Below are positions 45,431 through 56,467 of a stretch of DNA of 56,973 nucleotides, in pieces (position 1 is the first letter of the stretch; each line of letters opens with the position of its first letter). The notes below the pieces were generated by a model. That model ran no database searches. It was not told the DNA's origin and was given only the letters and a program-made list of their open reading frames with translations. This DNA comes from Cochliopodium minus (lineage: Eukaryota > Discosea > Himatismenida > Cochliopodiidae): assembly GCA_024220525.1 (NCBI GenBank), contig JAMYWO010000093.1, forward strand, positions 91,026 to 147,998, in the 5' to 3' direction. The translations under genes and the position numbers were made by a program.

Positions 45431-48400
45431 TTATTTTTTAATTTTAAAGATAGAAATTGCTTCACATTCACATATCTTCCACTTTTTAATCAGTTCAGTT
45501 ATAAATTTATCAAGGCCTTCATCAAATTTAGTATCTTCTCCCATGTATTGTTTGAAAAGAATCAAAAACTCTTCTTTTTGAGATTGGGAGAGAATTTCTT
45601 TGCTTCTTTCATTAACAAAGTTCATTTCATTTAATAATGATTCTATTTTAATTTTGAAAATGTTTATTTGTTCCACAACATTTTCTAAATCTAGATTGTA
45701 CTTTTTTTCTTTGAAAATTCTCTTTGAAACATTTCCTTTTTCAATTACTTCCCTTTTCTTTTCAACTTGAGTTACAATTTTGTCGACATAAGGTATTTGC
45801 CTATTTTTTTTTTCTTTTCTGGTTTTATTTTCATATCTAAAGAGTTCAAATTTGTCATTTACTTGATCATAAACCCAACCAATTTGTATTAAATCATTTT
45901 TCCACTTCAATAGTTGTTCATCGTAAGTATTTTGGTCAAATATTGTTACATTTCTTGTCTTTGTAACTTTTTCTCTTATTTGTTTAATCTTTATTCCCCA
46001 TATCTTTTTCATTGGAAATTCATAATAAGTTTCCACAATAGTTTTGTTATGAGAACCATGAACAGGTTTATTTGGGGGGTCATTGGAAACCAAAATTTTA
46101 TCGACAAAAGGAACATCCTCCTCATACTCTTCAATTCTTATTTTGTTTTCATATGTAACTTCATCTTCGGTATAATTTTCTATTTTGATCCCAACAGGTT
46201 TTATTTCAAACTTTATTTTATGATAAAGATCAGAATCTTTTGATTTTTCAATTTCTTTTTTTTTATTTGACAAAGAAATTAAAAAAATGATGTTCTGTTT
46301 CATTTCCATTGACTTTTCTCCAAAACAACCAGAAGTTTTAATAACTTTCTTTTCAACGAATAATGAAAACAAATCGTTTTTAGTTAGAGAGGTTTCATAC
46401 ACTTGTTTACATTCATGAATTAATTGAGAGAAGAGAGAAGTCAAGTCCAACAACTTTGGCCAGTTAAATTTCAAATTTTTTTCATTGGAAAATTTTACCA
46501 AATATTCCAATCTTGAATGTATCTTCTCAACTTCATTTGACAATTCAATTTGGAAAACTCCTTTTTCATTAAGATCGCTGATAAAGTCAAAAATGTTCAT
46601 ATTTCTTTCGTTCAAGCAAAATGTTTCCAAAAATTCTACAACATTTTTCATTTCCAAAGAGTAGAATTCAATCTTGTTTTTGATTATTTTTTTGATAGTA
46701 TTTTTAACTTCAAAAACAAAATAATCTAAAATTAAATGAATCATTTTAGATATTTTTTCTCTTGTTTCAATCGAAGGTGTTGCCTTGAAACATTCCTTTA
46801 TCTCCACATAATTTGTTCTTTTAATCAATTCAATGATGGATTTTTTTTGATCTTTTATTTCATCATAAGGCATATCTACCTCCATTTCTTCACCAAATTT
46901 TGAAAAAATAGAGATTTTATTTTCAGAGAGAATGTGTTGAATGAAAGCAGTATGTTCTCCTTTTTTAGATTGTTTCAAAAAGTCTTCTAAATGTGATTGT
47001 ATCGATTCCATTACCCTATTCGTATTTCTTCCTGCATGAGTGACAATGAGGGCCACAAATTCTTTCAAATCACCCAAATTTCCAAAAGAATTTGATAGAA
47101 TTTCCAAAATCTCATTGAAATTTTTCAAGTAACTTCCAGAAGCCGAAAAAAAAGTTTCGGGGATGCACCAAAGAACTTTAATTGATGTTAATTTTTCAGA
47201 AAGCGTTGTGTTGACCATAGCATTAAAAAAATCCATCTTTAAATTAAAAAAATTTAATTTTAAAAGTATTATTTTAATTTTTTAAAAAAATCTTCTTACC
47301 AGAAAACCAGAAGAATCAAATGAACCTGCCATGTCAATAAAAGTACTTTCTCCAAAATCAGATTCTTTTTCAGTTACCCAAATATTAGCAAATGAAGTAG
47401 TGGAACCCAAACCTTTCCCAACACTTGCAATTTTTTCCGTTTCGTTTGGAAACAAGCAAAATTTACGATCAAATTTTTTGACATAAAGATTCACACCGGC
47501 CAAGAAATTCAAAATAGTACTTTTTCCTTTTAAAAATTAAAAATAAAACAAAAATTGAATTTAAAAAAAATTTTTTTTACCAGCCCCAGTTGGACCTATC
47601 AATAAAATTCCTTCTTTTGTCGGAATGGTCTTGGAAGAATTGTTTATTTCTAGAAAATCCAATATTTTCAAGATTTCTTGAAACTTATGGCTTATCAAAG
47701 TACTATTGTCTTCGAAATATTCTGTTAACAAATCTTGTTTTTTGAGAATTTCTTCTTTGAGATCAGAGTCGTTACTACATTTGTCAATTTTTTGCTTGGA
47801 AATCAAAAGCTTTACTTGATTCAGCTCTTTTTGTGTTTCAATTAGATTTTCTTTCATTTCTATCACTTCTTGAATGTGAATATTCTCGCTTTCTTCCTTT
47901 CTCAATCTGTATAAATTTTTGGAGTCTTCTATATGAGCTTTTGTTACATAAATAGAATAGTCATTGATGTGATGAGCAATTAAAGGGATTCCCAACAAAT
48001 TGATTTTATCTTTTATCAAGCTTCCAAATCTTGGATAGTTGATCTTTTGGATTTCTTTGTCTTCAGACATTTTATTTCTGATTAGATCAGTTATTTGCTG
48101 TGGAGATAAAAGAGTCTTGTGGATTTGTTCTTTTAAAACTATTTCAAGAAAATGAGAAAAGATTCCTCTCCAAAGTCCTCCAAATTTTCTTTCAAAAGAG
48201 AGTTTATTATGAGCACCAGAAGATATACACTTCAATCCCCTATATTTAGAATTTTCAACATAATTCGTCATTTCAAAATTGATTGGAACTTCTCCTAAAA
48301 TATTTCCAGAGAAACAAGAGTCAAGAATAAGTAGGAAATGTCTAAAACTTTTTTTCAAAAGTAACTCCCTTAGCTCTGAAAATTCAATACCCCCTTCATC

Positions 48401-49273
48401 TGCTTTTTCTTTTTGAAAATCAGCAAAACATAAATAACCTTTCCCATCTTTAACATAACCGTGTCCTTTATTTTTTTTTTTAAAAAAAATAACATAAAAG
48501 AGAAATAAAACAACTATAAATATTACCCGCAAAGTATACAACTAAAAGTTCTCTTTCATGCTCTTTCTTTTCTCTTATCTCTGTTTCCCCAAAACTTTCC
48601 AGGAACTGTTGCTTGTTAAAATCAAAAAGAGAGCAAGAAACTTCATATCCCTTTTTCGAGGACACATTCTCTATAGCTTTACCATCGTTAATAGCTCCTT
48701 GGAGTTGATCAAGATGTTTGTAATTATTAATACTATAAATTTTCACTTCAACTCTTTTGTACAGTTTGTATTCTTCTGTCTATTTAATAAATTTATTTTC
48801 AAAGTTAATGATAAATTTAAAAATGAAAGTAAATTTACATCTTCTATTTTGAGTGCTGATTTAATGTTGGAATTTTCCTGCTCTTTGATTATCGGAAAAT
48901 ATTCATCCTGAAATAAAATAGAAAATTAAATATTAATTGAATGTTGTGATTTTGATTTTAATTTTATGATTACATCTTTTTTTTTATCCAAATTTTCTTC
49001 AATATCTTGTTTATTATCATCTATTTCTTTTGAAATTATTTGATAATTCAAACCAGAGTTAGCTTCCTCCTCACTAAATTTATCTATCAAAATTTTAACA
49101 AGCAATTCATCATTCTTTATTATTTCCCATTCATTCATTGTTTCCTTATTTAATTCTGATTCATTGATCAAAGATATAAGTTTATCCTGTGTTATATTAT
49201 CCTTATTGTGATCAAAGATAACAATCTTTCTCAGCATCTCTATAAATTCATTTACAATTTTTTCTTCATTCAT
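45431..49273 (-). CDS. Caspase/metacaspase-like protease fused to a P-loop GTPase
   Basis: Six exons (48974-49273, 48839-48907, 48527-48779, 47581-48465, 47300-47526, 45431-47236) sum to 3540 nt, 1179 aa, every join in phase. Residues 1-125: acidic helical N-region. About 130-330: caspase-like (C14) domain with IYSINNYKHLDQLQGAINDG, KKGYEV, VVYFAGHGYVKDGKGYL (His209) and HFLLILDSCFSGN (Cys258), the canonical HG / DSCxSG dyad. About 385-485: coiled coil. About 490-700: G domain with ILLIGPTGAGKSTILNFLAG (P-loop, Lys504), TTS, STFIDMAGSFDSSG (D-x-x-G) and ALIVTHAGRN in the G4 position. The remaining 480 residues are helical with repeated VPFVDKI / IPYVDKI blocks. Predicted cytosolic nucleotide-switched protease, as in death or defence pathways. 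The active-site residues are intact. Confidence 0.8.
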
Positions 49274-49408: not shown

Positions 49409-50607
49409 TCAAAAATTAAATTTCCACAAAGAACAATAATGATCGTAAAAAGAACAACTGGCAATCAAATTGATTTTATCATTATGACACCAATCAACAC
49501 CATATCCCAAAGATTTATGCTGGGTATAATTGAGCAACACCTCAAAAGAATTATCCACATATTTGACAACATGATAGCCACCATGCATAGTAGCAGTGAT
49601 GATTAAATTGGGAATATAAGGATGATATTTGACCCTCCATACACCATTATCCAATCTGATCTGCTCAAGAGGATTGGCGATATTTCTTGTATCAAAGATG
49701 CTCAAAGTCTCATCATAGCTGCCAACAGCAAATTCATATTCAGAATGGATGCTCTTCTGTATAGTGGTGACACCCATCATATAGGTCCTTTTATTGATTT
49801 GAGAGGCCATCTTCTTGTTGGATCTGCAATCCCATACCTTGAGGGTACAATCATCAGATCCAGTGAAGAGGATATTGTTATTATGATAATCATAAGAGGT
49901 GATCCATGCTTCATTATCATGTGCTTTCCACTTTTCCACCATTTCTATCTCATTTCCTATCTTCCACAATGATATCCCTCCATCAGAATGACTGATGCAT
50001 ATATTTGGTTCGCCTTCATCATGTATTTTATTATTCCAATCCAATGAAAGACATACATCTTCCTTTTTGGTTTCCATATACCTTTTGCGAAAAAATATAA
50101 AAAAATTTTTAATTTATAGTGATATATAATGTGATGTGATTTGATAATGATCTATATATACCATCAACATTCCATTAATTACTGTTATGACAATTAATCA
50201 TATCCATATAAAACTTTATTATCATACCTCAATTCCTCTAAACCTACAGATTTTTCTTCCTTCTCCTTTAATTCTATTAATCTTAATCCTCCACACTCCA
50301 CCTGGACCAATGTCTTCTTACCCTCCTTGCTTTTTTTGTTGTTCCATTTGATATCCAAGATTGCCTCTGTATTAATTGAATTCAATGGCTCCATCTTTAT
50401 CAACTCTTCCTTATCCATATACTTTGATGAATCCATCAGATCAATCCTCCCATATTTCTTGTGTATTTTGGTCTCCCCTTCTTCTTTAAGCTGATAAGTT
50501 CCCACAACAAAATAATCTTTGTTTTCTTCAAATGGACAAAATTCAATTGAATCAGCTGAATAGATAGTATCATATTCTCCAATCATTTTGAATTGATCTT
50601 CTTTCAT
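49409..50607 (-). CDS. DPH7: Diphthine methyltransferase (WD40 repeat), DPH7/WDR85
   Basis: Works in diphthamide synthesis on eEF2: removes the methyl ester from methylated diphthine before the final amidation. Two exons, 50228-50607 and 49409-50081, sum to 1053 nt, 350 aa, joined EELR|YMETKKED. The N-terminus EYDTIYSADSIEFCPFEENK and FVVGTYQL is the DPH7 signature; WD repeats follow, including AHDNEAWITSYDYHNNNILF, TGSDDCTLKVWDCR, FAVGSYDETLSIFDTR and NGVWRVKYHPYIPNLIITAT. The ATG lies 139 bases from that of divergent PPIL1. Confidence 0.88.
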
Positions 50608-50746
50608 TTTTTTTTAAATAAAAATATTTCTAGAAAATATCACCTTGATCTTCATCTAATGAAGATATCAGTTTGAACAATATGATCTATTCTTTTTTTA
50701 AAAAAATTGAAATCTAATCAATTCACAACGAATTTAAATAAAAAAA
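50608..50746. promoter_or_regulatory. Divergent intergenic region between DPH7 and PPIL1
   Basis: 139 bases between two start codons on opposite strands; probable shared promoter. No named element seen. Confidence 0.35.
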
Positions 50747-51553
50747 ATGAGTGAGGATAAAAAGACTGTAACTTTTACAACCAATGTTGGGGAAATCACA
50801 TTCGAATTGTACTGGAATCATTCTCCAAACACTTGCAAGAATTTCTATGAATTGTCCAAAAAAGGATATTATGATGGAACTATCTTTCACAGAGTTATCA
50901 AAGGTAAAATTTAATCAAATCATCAAATAATTGATCCCAATCAAATCTAAAGAATGTTCTCAAAAGAATTTATATCAAAGAAAGAAAATTTAATAATTAT
51001 TCTCATAAATCAATGTTGGATATCTTGATTTATCAAGATGCTTGAAACAATACTTAATTTAATTTAATTTATCTACTTATTTTTAGCAAATCATAAAGAA
51101 GATGAAGGGATATTAAACTAAAATGATCTATTCAATAATTTCACTTTTTTGATTGAATAATTTAATATCTATCATCTTTATAGATCAGAATATCCTTTTC
51201 AAACTTTAATTTCTTTTTTTTTTTTTCAAAAAGATTTCATGATTCAAGGAGGAGATCCAACAGGAACAGGAAGAGGAGGAGAATCGATCTTCGGAGAAAA
51301 ATTCGGAGACGAAATCACAAAAGAACTCAAACACGTAGGAGCAGGGATTTTATCGATGGCGAACAGTGGTCCAAACACAAACGGAAGCCAATTTTTCATA
51401 ACTTTGGCACCTTGTCCTTGGTTGGATGGGAAACACACTATCTTTGGTCGTGTTTTGACTGGAATGTCTGTCGTGAAGAGAATGGGTAATGTTAATGTAA
51501 GTGAGAGGGATAGACCAACCGAAGATTTGAAAATCATAAAAGCGGATATTTGA
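50747..51553 (+). CDS. PPIL1: Peptidyl-prolyl cis-trans isomerase-like 1 (cyclophilin)
   Basis: Spliceosome-associated cyclophilin. Two exons, 50747-50903 and 51234-51553, sum to 477 nt, 158 aa, typical for PPIL1. Active-site and family motifs: [20 protein letters not shown] (catalytic Arg, Phe, Met, Gln), [40 protein letters not shown] (Trp and His of the proline pocket). The C-terminus [13 protein letters not shown] fits PPIL1 rather than CypA. The 330-base intron holds stop-rich AT sequence and no other gene. TGA stop; tail-to-tail with HAP40, about 100 bases apart. Confidence 0.93.
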
Positions 51554-53375: not shown

Positions 53376-56300
53376 ATGAGTGAAAGAATTTTAGTATTGC
53401 CCACAGTTCCCCTTTTCATAATCTTCAATTATCTTGATATTAGCTCTTTATTCAAAGCATCAAAAGTTTGCAAGAAATGGAGGTAAAAACACGCCAATAT
53501 AAATTGTTTTAATTTTTCAATTCAAAAATAATAAAGATTATTGGCATTCAAGCTCGATAAGATGATTGATCATCTTCATGCTGAGTTGAAGAAGGATTTC
53601 TCAAAAATTGTTTTGGGAGATATCTTGAGAAATTCAGATAAAAAGAAACTAGAAGGATCCATCTTTTCAACATTAACAAGATTGATCAAAGGAGAAGATG
53701 TAAAAAAGTTCATTTCAATAAATTTCTTTTTTTTTTGTAACTAAATCAAAATTTCATATGAAAATTATAAATTTTTCTTTTTTTTTTTTCAAAGATACCA
53801 AACCACGAATTAGTGTTAAGCAACAGCCTCAAAAAAAGAGAAATTTCGTTTTCAAAACTCTCCTATTTCATAAAAAGAGTTATTGATCCAAAGTGTATTC
53901 ACAAATTGAGAATAAGAGAAAACATGAGCGAAAATCGGATGATTGAAATCATCTCGGGATTGACTGAACTGAAAAAAATTACTATTCAACAAGGATATTT
54001 AAGTTCAAATAATTTTGTGAAACTAAATGAGGAGATAGTAAAAAGATGTCCTAAAATCGAAAATTTAAATCTTGAAAATTGGTTTGTGCTTCCCTTTTCC
54101 TTGGACTTGTTATTGAATGGGTGTAAACATCTCCGAAAAATATTCATTAATTCTAAAAATGAAAATATCTTCTCTTTTCTTTCCGAACACCCTCAAATAT
54201 CAAAAATAGAGGAATTGAAAATAGAAATAAATAATTCAAAAGAGGAAAATTTTAAGTACAAAAATTTATTTTGTAAGATAATCAAAAATTGCGGCAAATC
54301 TTTGAAATCACTCGATCTATCCTGCAATTTTATTGATGAATTTTTGTTGGAAACCATTGCAGAGCATTGTCCAAATTTTCAATCATTAATAATTAAAAAT
54401 GGAATAGGGGAAGTGAAATTGAAAGTTTCTTCTTTAATTAAAATGGCCGAAAAATGCAGAAATTTCCCAAAAAAACTATACGTTAATTATTATGACCTTT
54501 TGTTCGTTGGTGAAGAAAATGAAAAAATAGAATTAATGAAATTGTGTTACAAAAGAATTGAAAAATTCACGATGAATACAAATTATCCCGATAATAACAA
54601 TTTATTTGACATTTTGTATTTCGACCCTCTAAAAATAAAGTTGATTGATGCGAAAATAAACACTTTGGATTTTTTTGAAAGAGGAATTGAAGACATGGTG
54701 AATTTGAAAACTCTTAATTTATTAACTTCATTTAATTTTTGTCTTGAAACCCCCTACAATTTAAAGTCTAATTATGTTGAACATTTTAGACACAGAGATT
54801 TTTATAAAAATTTCTCCCTTACAACTGATTTCCCAAACCTAAAAAACAAAAATGATTATATCACTTATTGTACTCAAAGTGACATTTTGGATATTGAAAA
54901 GGAAAGACCTTCAAAGGTATATTTCGAAAGATTTTTTTTCAAAAATGAGGAAGATTTGAGAATTATTGAAAACATATCCAATTTCACTAAAAGAATCTCC
55001 ACCCACGACATGAAATTTGAAATCCCTTTTTTGAATTTATTTGTAGAAAGAGAAGAACTCCCAGAATTATTCAAAATATTTAAATATTTGAACCTGAAAA
55101 TTGTGGATGACTCTTCAATGATTAAAGTATTGAAAGCTCTTCCTAAAATGTTTCCTAACCTATATAAAATACAAGTTAGTGAATCTAATGATGGAGATCC
55201 ATTTGACCAAGAACATTTGGACTTGTACTTTGCTTTGCCTGCCAAAGAATTGTTTTTTAGCTATAATCTTGTTTGTAGTGAATATAACTTCAATATTGAA
55301 AATGATAACATCGAGCACATATATTTGTGTTATTGCTTGGCTGAAAATATTTCAATAAAATGCAAAAACTTGAGAATTTTGGACATTCTCCACTTTCCTT
55401 CTTATCAACCAAATTTTAAAAATGTAATCGTTCTTGAACAAATGATTCTCCAAATATCAGACCCCACCTATTCTTCTCATCTAAGATACTTATCAGTTGA
55501 ATATTCAGATTGTAATATTCAAAAGCCTCACCAAAAAATGAACATCAAACTAAGAAATGGTACTTTTCCTTTTCTTAAACAACTTTTTCTTTGCCAACTT
55601 TTTTCTATTGTGACTCTCAACATTGAAAATGATTCCCTCGAGAAAATTCAATTAGAACTGAGATTTCTTTTTAAACTTTCTTTGAAATGTAAAAATTTAG
55701 AGAGTTTAAAATTGAAAGATTGTAAAAATCTGAGAGATCTCAAAATTTCTAATTCTCCTTCTCTCTTAAACTTCGATGTAGAGAAACATGTTTTCCAAAA
55801 ATTTAGGATATGTACACCAAACATTCAACATTTCGATATCAATTTCTACTGCAAAACTTTTGATTTAATTAATTCTCTTTCTAAATGCACTAACCTCAAA
55901 AGTTTGGTTCTTTCGAGCATATCTTGTACCAACAAATTTGTTTACTCTATTCCAAAATTATTTCCTTACTTACAAGTATTGCATCACACTAATAACTCTC
56001 CGAACGTCTCCAATTTTTATCTTTCATACGTCAAATCTGAATTTTTAAATAAGAATATAGATTTTTATCTGTTTTCAGATAGAGGGGAAATCCAAGATTT
56101 TAGATCAAAAGATTTTGACAAAATGTTGAAATTAAACACAATTCTCAAATGGAAACACGCCCAAAAATGGAAAATCTTCTCTTCTTGGAGATTTTTAGTT
56201 AACAAAACCAATACGAACTGTTACAAGAATGATCTTCAAGATTTGACTCCTGAAAAACTTTCCAAAGATAAAAAGCCTTCTAAAATTCACAACAAAACTA

Positions 56301-56467
56301 CAGAGATTTCAAAAATAAAAAATGATATAAGGTCTTCCAAAACATCAAAAAATAAAAATGATCTTTCATTTATAGAAGAAGAAAAAACAAATAAGCCAAA
56401 GATTGCTAAAAACAAAAAAAATAAGAAATACATTAACACCAACATCTTTGATCTTTTAAAGAATTAA
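53376..56467 (+). CDS. F-box protein with leucine-rich-repeat-like body (980 aa)
   Basis: Three exons (53376-53482, 53537-53699, 53795-56467) sum to 2943 nt, 980 aa. Residues 1-45 are a short F-box: LPTVPLFIIFNYLDISSLFK, ASKVCKKWR. The body is made of degenerate leucine-rich repeats of the RNI/AMN1 type: GLTELKKITIQQGYL, RCPKIENLNLENWF, NCGKSLKSLDLSCNFIDEFL, HCPNFQSLIIKNG, KCKNLESLKLKDCKNLRDLK, KCTNLKSLVLSSIS. Ile/Leu spacing of about 25 residues. The last 90 residues are Lys-rich and disordered. Likely an SCF substrate receptor; the target is unknown. Confidence 0.75.

Follow-up and report, generated by a model that had tools for sequence, protein, structure and literature searches.

A Peptidase C14 domain and a divergent GTPase domain encoded by one gene of Cochliopodium minus

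A single gene was found to encode a caspase-type protease domain (Peptidase C14) and a P-loop GTPase domain in one open frame within a 56,973-nucleotide stretch of Cochliopodium minus DNA (NCBI GenBank assembly GCA_024220525.1, contig JAMYWO010000093.1, positions 91,026 to 147,998; the whole stretch is called the window below). Each of the two halves has relatives elsewhere in the same genome, in a C14-NACHT family and in a small family of GTPases, respectively. The gene may encode a single-chain C14 protease with a GTPase switch, which would have arisen by exchange of the nucleoside triphosphatase (NTPase) module inside an NLR-like C14 family and would probably act in a death or defence setting; the chances for and against this reading, drawn from sequence and analogy, are judged to be evenly balanced. 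All features of the gene given below lie on the minus strand, with positions counted from the first letter of the window.

Gene structure

As the preliminary description of this DNA had proposed, six exons can be joined in phase from 49273 to 45431 into one frame of 1179 codons and a stop. All five introns are bounded by GT..AG, measure 66, 59, 61, 54 and 63 nt, and have a G+C content of 9–15% against 24–33% for the exons (two exon ends were one base off in that count). Codon frequencies learnt from five paralogue frames were used to score coding potential. In all six exons the frame of the gene model scored positive and highest of the three same-strand frames; in exon 2, of 69 nt, one reverse-strand frame outscored it. 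The introns and 3' flank reached a maximum of 0.13.

Exon 1 (48974..49273, residues 1–100) encodes an N-terminal region with a W-E-I-I-K motif, exon 2 (48839..48907, residues 101–123) a charged linker, and exon 3 (48527..48779, residues 124–207 plus one base) the start of the C14 domain as far as the GHG motif, which begins at residue 208. Exon 4 (47581..48465) is a contiguous open frame that starts at the second base of codon 208 and ends with the first base of codon 503; it contains His209, Cys258, the remaining C14 domain, the linker and the first half of the P-loop. The remainder of G1, the switch region (SxT) and DMAG follow in exon 5 (47300..47526, residues 503–578), and the end of the G domain and a long C-terminal region in exon 6 (45431..47236, residues 579–1179). 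Intron 3 (48526-48466) falls inside the genomic span of the C14 domain, and intron 4 (47527..47580), in phase 1, splits a P-loop glycine codon.

Exon 4 bears on whether one gene or two are present. The preliminary description had singled out 48465-47581 as carrying the catalytic Cys together with the P-loop start, and in the assembly it is indeed one uninterrupted open exon. Because His209, Cys258 and the first P-loop half share this single open stretch, only an assembly error could allow the C14 and GTPase domains to come from two genes, and a two-gene model was rejected. At the level of the assembled sequence, a real fusion gene with one frame, an intact C14 dyad and a P-loop GTPase domain is confirmed. 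Retention of intron 4 would bring in a stop soon after GPTGAGK and could give a second, C14-only form without the GTPase.

The C14 domain and its relatives in the genome

The Peptidase C14 domain (Pfam PF00656, residues 139–353, 48029..48734 including intron 3) scored 44.9 bits on the whole protein against a cut-off of 21.4, and 48.6 bits on the C14 piece alone. The HG...DSCFSG dyad, described earlier as intact, was borne out: the GHG, D and C columns are invariant in a seven-row C14 alignment, so that His209 and Cys258 (codon 48316-48314, within DSCFSG at residues 256–261, 48305..48322) stand in the aligned positions. When solved structures were searched with the whole protein, the nearest was the human MALT1 paracaspase (E 8.8e-4), matched over the C14 part. 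By its sequence, the domain belongs to the caspase/metacaspase-fold Peptidase C14 group.

The whole assembly (44.65 Mb in 598 contigs, to which the C-numbers below refer) was then scanned with the same profile, which also rang in 1 of 14 control prokaryotes. Twenty-four matches were obtained at E <= 0.001; they do not include the window gene, an absence that we attribute to the introns splitting its domain. The NACHT profile gave 26 matches, 25 of them over the cut-off. For 14 of the 24 C14 matches, a NACHT match was located on the same strand no more than 2.5 kb downstream, the one on C461 being borderline (26.9 bits in one scan and 24.2 in another, cut-off 26.7). At 9 of these 14 loci, with the C108 locus not included, C14 and a P-loop fall within one open frame. 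All five long paralogue frames scanned with Pfam contained NACHT and ankyrins over the cut-offs, and four also C14; the fifth, L040, scored 20.2 bits for C14, probably because its start was taken at the first Met, inside the domain. Ten C14 matches were without NACHT, and partners were inspected for four of them: on C116 and C390 the C14 domain adjoins ankyrin frames, on C42 a sub-cut-off STAND-like match shares one frame with ankyrins and two C14 domains, and on C111 ankyrins occur with a sub-cut-off AAA match. Catalytic residues appeared, by eye, to be lost in two copies, on C116 and in one C39 frame.

The window C14 domain matched this family with E-values down to 1.8e-59, at 33–40% identity to the seven best paralogue frames and 37–40% to three C14-NACHT matches. 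The likeness does not stop at the end of the Pfam domain but covers about 46 further residues of the linker (residues 354–399, 47891..48028), a stretch that is homologous to C14-NACHT paralogues by blastp: against 15 paralogue frames, two were matched at E 3.7e-9 and 1.0e-8 (45.1 and 43.9 bits), compared with 26.2 bits for the best of 50 shuffles. In a tree of 14 C14 domains the window sequence groups with eight C14-NACHT rows (support 84/85, short of what the tool marks as firm). Descent of the C14 domain and about 46 linker residues from the C14-NACHT family of the same genome can be regarded as shown, as far as sequence comparison goes. Intron 3 (YFAG|HG), compared by eye with the exon ends of some paralogues, looked unshared.

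Past the linker the resemblance ends. The window protein and the C14-NACHT-ankyrin proteins agree in the C14 domain, in the stretch after it and in the position of an NTPase module along the chain, but in the paralogues that module is NACHT (with ankyrins in the five scanned), whereas in the window gene it is a GTPase domain interrupted by introns. With limits of E 1 for the protein and E 10 for the domain, Pfam listed no NACHT (PF05729) match, nor was any ankyrin match listed for the protein. A NACHT identity of the window P-loop domain was rejected. The contrast with STAND ATPases drawn in the preliminary description was thus apt, since the closest C14 relatives carry NACHT, a STAND domain, where the window gene has its GTPase. 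No second copy of the C14-GTPase architecture was found in the genome.

The C14-NACHT-ankyrin set, with many members in long open frames, can also be seen as an NLR-like family in a microbial eukaryote; one member, L034, has tetratricopeptide repeats at its end. At L045:2118-2921 and L044:2384-3016, inspection by eye showed C14 copies with neither catalytic residue, His nor Cys (SGKV / DGVYDG and SADS / DTVFED, respectively); these are likely pseudoproteases of that family. A repeat of about 139 nt was noted in at least 41 copies that are 92–100% identical (best 40 of 482 candidates scored), for example at C46:118025-118163, C129:91062-91200, C80:34857-34987 and C2:221596-221729. The C14 matches on C46, C129 and C80 have copies directly upstream, and on C2 a copy separates two exons of a GTPase gene; the repeat is perhaps a short mobile element in introns.

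The GTPase domain and its kinship

The P-loop GPTGAG|KST (residues 498–506, 47516..47596) spans intron 4 and is restored by splicing. DMAG, the DxxG of G3, begins at residue 567 (47335-47324), and the remainder of the G domain (residues 579 to about 705, 46856..47236) contains THAG (residues 644–647, 47041-47030) in the place of G4. A weak match within the genome led to a family of four multi-exon GTPase genes, one each on C294 and C100 and two on C2. A hidden Markov model (HMM) made from these four genes, with the window left out, scored 49.1 bits on the window G domain, in keeping with the GTPase-type reading that the preliminary description had given to its P-loop and DxxG box. The best scores of controls were 9.0 bits for 1000 plain shuffles (945 scored), 28.1 bits for 1000 shuffles in which the P-loop was kept and 1.5 bits for 33 other long frames from C14 loci (14 scored). 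With the P-loop removed, the window domain scored 24.9 bits against 7.8 for the best of 1000 shuffles (947 scored). Alignment of the window G domain to the four-gene family with hhalign gave a probability of 97.9%.

In the five-row alignment of the window and family sequences, GKST (in GxxGxGKST), S-x-T, the D of DxxG and the T of G4 are invariant, while the Gly of DxxG and the His of the TH-type G4 are each present in four of the five rows, the window having both. Identity between the window domain and the four members is 19–27%. The C100 gene, in addition, has an intron at the same base (phase 1) of the P-loop glycine codon as window intron 4, a coincidence that is hard to explain except by common descent; this position was not seen in the other three genes (C294 and both on C2). 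We firmly assign the window G domain, from these sequence comparisons, to the C294/C100/C2 family as a divergent member. The G1, G2 and G3 motifs and the T of G4 occupy the same columns, but the family differs in that no C14 match was obtained on C294, C100 or C2 in the genome scan, which misses intron-split C14 domains such as that of the window, and in that the C-termini of the window protein and of C294 gave no match to each other. The sequence examined upstream of the family G-domain matches amounted to about 1.5 kb (C294), 0.3 kb (C100), and 0.6 and 0.2 kb (C2).

Beyond the genome, relatives of the window domain itself were scarce. In the protein database, the G domain (residues 466–702) gave no match at E <= 1 among 2270 candidates sharing short exact words with it, and the whole protein none at E <= 0.01 among the 8000 candidates sharing most words. 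The G domain and the profile of the five-row alignment returned P-loop matches among solved structures, and the alignment gave sub-cut-off P-loop matches in NCBIfam. Of 600 pattern-matching stretches in viral contigs, none was confirmed as a relative.

A wider kinship was reached through the family. With the C294 protein as query against a large protein database, six proteins were found at E <= 10 among 5974 candidates. Four are fish proteins, of which two fall below E 0.01 (8.6e-4 and 4.0e-3); another carries SecA domains, and the remaining one is an unnamed protein of 1276 residues whose G domain lies close to the N-terminus (E 4.4e-14). The fish protein P0003 scored 56.3 bits for AIG1 and 65.2 bits for Septin, and both profiles exceeded the Pfam cut-offs in P0005 as well. 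The C294 protein scored 20.0 bits for AIG1 (cut-off 27), and in the five-row alignment four of the five members matched AIG1 (best E 2.8e-4), the exception being the window domain. For that domain Pfam listed no AIG1 (PF04548) match up to E 10. Sequence comparison suggests a chain of kinship from the window to the family in its own genome, a firm link, and from there to an AIG1/septin-like clade, a fair one. The direct link between the window and the fish proteins is no better than the P-loop explains, and the domain is not filed as AIG1. Kinship with AIG1/septin-like GTPases is upheld by way of the same-genome family, and not for the window domain taken alone. The fish proteins P0003 to P0006 have the same order of G motifs (P0003 and P0004 aligned) but differ in showing no protease and in having two G domains or, in P0005, a RING/B-box N-terminus.

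Other GTPase types named beforehand found no support. Dynamin-type identity was rejected: Dynamin_N scored 15.4 bits (cut-off 27), the match covering the P-loop, and it was the only profile of these types that Pfam listed for the window domain, with none for GBP, IRG or VLIG. The DO-GTPase profiles PF19993 and PF19975 were likewise not listed at E up to 10. Seven further AIG1 matches over the Pfam cut-off were noted in the genome, on C130, C4, C108, C29, C122 (two) and C148; some of these may be other GTPases, since the scan rang in all 14 control prokaryotes and exceeded the cut-off in eight.

The regions flanking the two domains are less informative. The profile searches suggested in the preliminary description succeeded for C14 and gave sub-cut-off matches for the P-loop domain, with no Pfam match near the cut-off for residues 773–1179; the same was found for residues 1–123. 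A W-[DE]-I-I-[KR] motif also occurs in the probable first exons of three paralogues (20 loci scanned), and the N-terminus did not match a profile of these three significantly, with scores as high in 26 of 2000 plain and 94 of 2000 motif-kept shuffles. Residues 721–1179 compared with the C-termini of P0001 and C294 gave nothing better than E 3, and residues 919–1092 elsewhere in the genome nothing better than E 1.4. The C-terminus is poor in Pro and Gly except around residues 901–1000. Its repeat motifs, VPFVDKI (residues 953–959, 46094..46114) and IPYVDKI (residues 1059–1065, 45776..45796), sit in a two-copy stretch YENKxRxE...xPxVDKI, 106 residues apart; the local alignment score of the two stretches was equalled by 7 of 1000 shuffles.

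Proposed switch, alternatives and precedents

STAND NACHT domains oligomerise on ATP and thereby gather effector domains, and the pairing of septin and AIG1-type G domains depends on nucleotide. Taken together, these two behaviours make a C14 protease that is assembled and switched on by GTP-dependent pairing the best-supported reading of the gene, and from them we infer, by analogy, that GTP may gate the protease. In the simplest history, an NLR-like C14-NACHT-ankyrin gene would have lost everything from NACHT onward and gained a GTPase module together with one of that module's introns. On binding GTP, the G domains would form pairs or oligomers in the way known from septin and AIG1-type domains, and the C14 domains so brought together would be activated by proximity; oligomerisation of NACHT would do the same in the paralogues. 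The C-terminal region, including both xPxVDKI stretches, might fill the place of the paralogues' ankyrins as sensor, adaptor or location module, and the likely setting would be cell death or defence. The stronger proposal, of a eukaryotic GTP-gated caspase-like death or defence switch in a single NLR-like C14 chain, in which an AIG1/septin-type GTPase has replaced a STAND ATPase, so that proteolysis is triggered by assembly on GTP in place of an apoptosome-like assembly on ATP, is put forward tentatively and remains somewhat doubtful.

Several results weigh against such a switch. The window P-loop domain reached no GTPase cut-off in Pfam, and its sub-cut-off matches lie nearly all over the P-loop. 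Its G4 reads THAG and not N/TKxD, which departs from the canonical GTP-specific form and leaves nucleotide specificity unproven. Compared directly with the fish profile, the window domain was equalled by 13 of 1000 P-loop-kept shuffles and, with the P-loop removed, by 37 of 817 scored shuffles. The NACHT profile rang in 11 of the 14 control prokaryotes, in three of them over the cut-off, and with such poor specificity single weak NACHT matches mean little. The C14 tree is unrooted and has long branches, so that an exchange in the direction from NACHT to GTPase is a matter of parsimony and not of proof. Dimerisation and control of the protease are drawn from analogy, and the fusion protein is predicted from the genomic sequence.

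The main rival turns the relation round: on a signal, C14 would cut its own linker and free the GTPase and C-terminus as an effector, in the manner proposed for bacterial EACC1-caspase proteins. In the family of the window gene, C14 is indeed constant and is joined to differing C-terminal halves (NACHT-ankyrin, ankyrin without NACHT, GTPase). In PMC7159879, EACC1-type caspases are described with an N-terminal caspase and up to 50 different C-terminal domains, elongation factor Tu among them, and deployment of these variable domains as effectors by autoproteolysis is proposed. Any cleavage site in the window protein is hypothetical, however, and 14 of the 24 C14 matches in the genome have as partner a STAND-type switch, a kind of module whose usual part is to control and not to serve. 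Effector release is accordingly considered unlikely. We also think it improbable that a working C14-GTPase serves an ordinary process such as membrane traffic, cytoskeleton, cell cycle or stress, apart from death or defence. Metacaspases and septin/AIG1-type GTPases are generally known to have such roles as well, and two neighbouring frames look ordinary by eye, 49409-50077, which we take to be a WD-repeat protein, and 50738-50914, presumably cyclophilin-like. Set against this, the nearest C14 kin are NLR-like C14-NACHT-ankyrin proteins, among which are diverged members and two catalytically broken copies, a pattern common in defence and self-recognition families. That the fusion is non-working, a decayed gene or two genes misassembled, would agree with the single copy of the architecture and the lack of a protein-database relative in word-sharing searches, but is highly improbable in view of 1179 open codons with coding signal in all six exons, exact restoration of the P-loop by splicing, one exon holding the C14 Cys and P-loop start with no intron between them, an intron position common to the separate C100 gene, and retention of the dyad and most G motifs.

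For precedents, bacterial and archaeal genomes were scanned with a C14 alignment by way of one pattern around the catalytic Cys; 221 of 408 stretches were confirmed, and 78 distinct loci were kept. A P-loop motif occurred in the same frame as C14 at 25 of the 78, although some of these motifs look like chance. Pfam was run on 10 of the 25 frames, with five matching nSTAND1, two FtsK/SpoIIIE, one NB-ARC and one DO-GTPase2, and one unmatched. The DO-GTPase2 case, a 902-codon frame of Nocardia takedensis (L133:3698-6403), contains C14 (53.5 bits) and DO-GTPase2 (38.6 bits), both over the cut-offs. It resembles the window gene in having an N-terminal C14 domain and then a GTPase domain in a single frame, but its GTPase is of another family, to whose profiles the window domain has no match, and we take it to be an independent fusion on sequence grounds. 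In five further Nocardia loci (L065, L067, L107, L108 and L113), C14 is followed by several P-loop motifs in the same frame; L065 and L107, the two scanned with Pfam, match FtsK/SpoIIIE, as in type VII secretion ATPases.

Bacterial metacaspase-NACHT (C14-NACHT) chains have been described (PMC3501461), and these, like the C14-nSTAND1 frames of our own sample, place a nucleotide switch after C14 in one chain, the switch being a STAND ATPase and not a GTPase. EACC1-caspase conflict systems likewise join a caspase to a variable C-terminal module, in some cases elongation factor Tu, but are two-gene, membrane-linked and bacterial (PMC7159879). AIG and AP-type GTPases occur in caspase-bearing conflict systems and in animal fusions (PMC7159879, PMC8195603), and in a snail AIG1 domains are fused to DD-CARD domains (PMC7053062). 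A term search of a paper on amphioxus caspases (PMC3196919) gave no match. No eukaryotic C14-GTPase single chain was listed by searches of the open-access literature on related terms, which is weak evidence of absence as subscription journals lie mostly outside it. The earlier view of an undescribed system was therefore too strong: the C14-NTPase layout is known in bacteria, and since bacterial caspase-GTPase single chains exist (N. takedensis; PMC7159879), the principle has precedent. By its sequence, the window gene is a real and unusual architecture, a variant of that bacterial layout in which even a GTPase partner, of another family, is precedented.

Caspase-type proteases stand mostly under ATP-driven STAND assemblies or adaptor proteins, and the apparent swap of modules suggests that the switch may be exchangeable. 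Proteases of one kind would then stand under two different nucleotide switches within one cell, in effect a natural experiment, and control of caspase activation by a GTPase would become directly testable in one chain outside animals. The genome, with its C14-NACHT-ankyrin set, may also serve as a protist example in tracing how NLR-like systems began. Elsewhere in the window, an open frame of 898 codons on the plus strand (53771-56467) has the look, by eye, of a leucine-rich-repeat protein.

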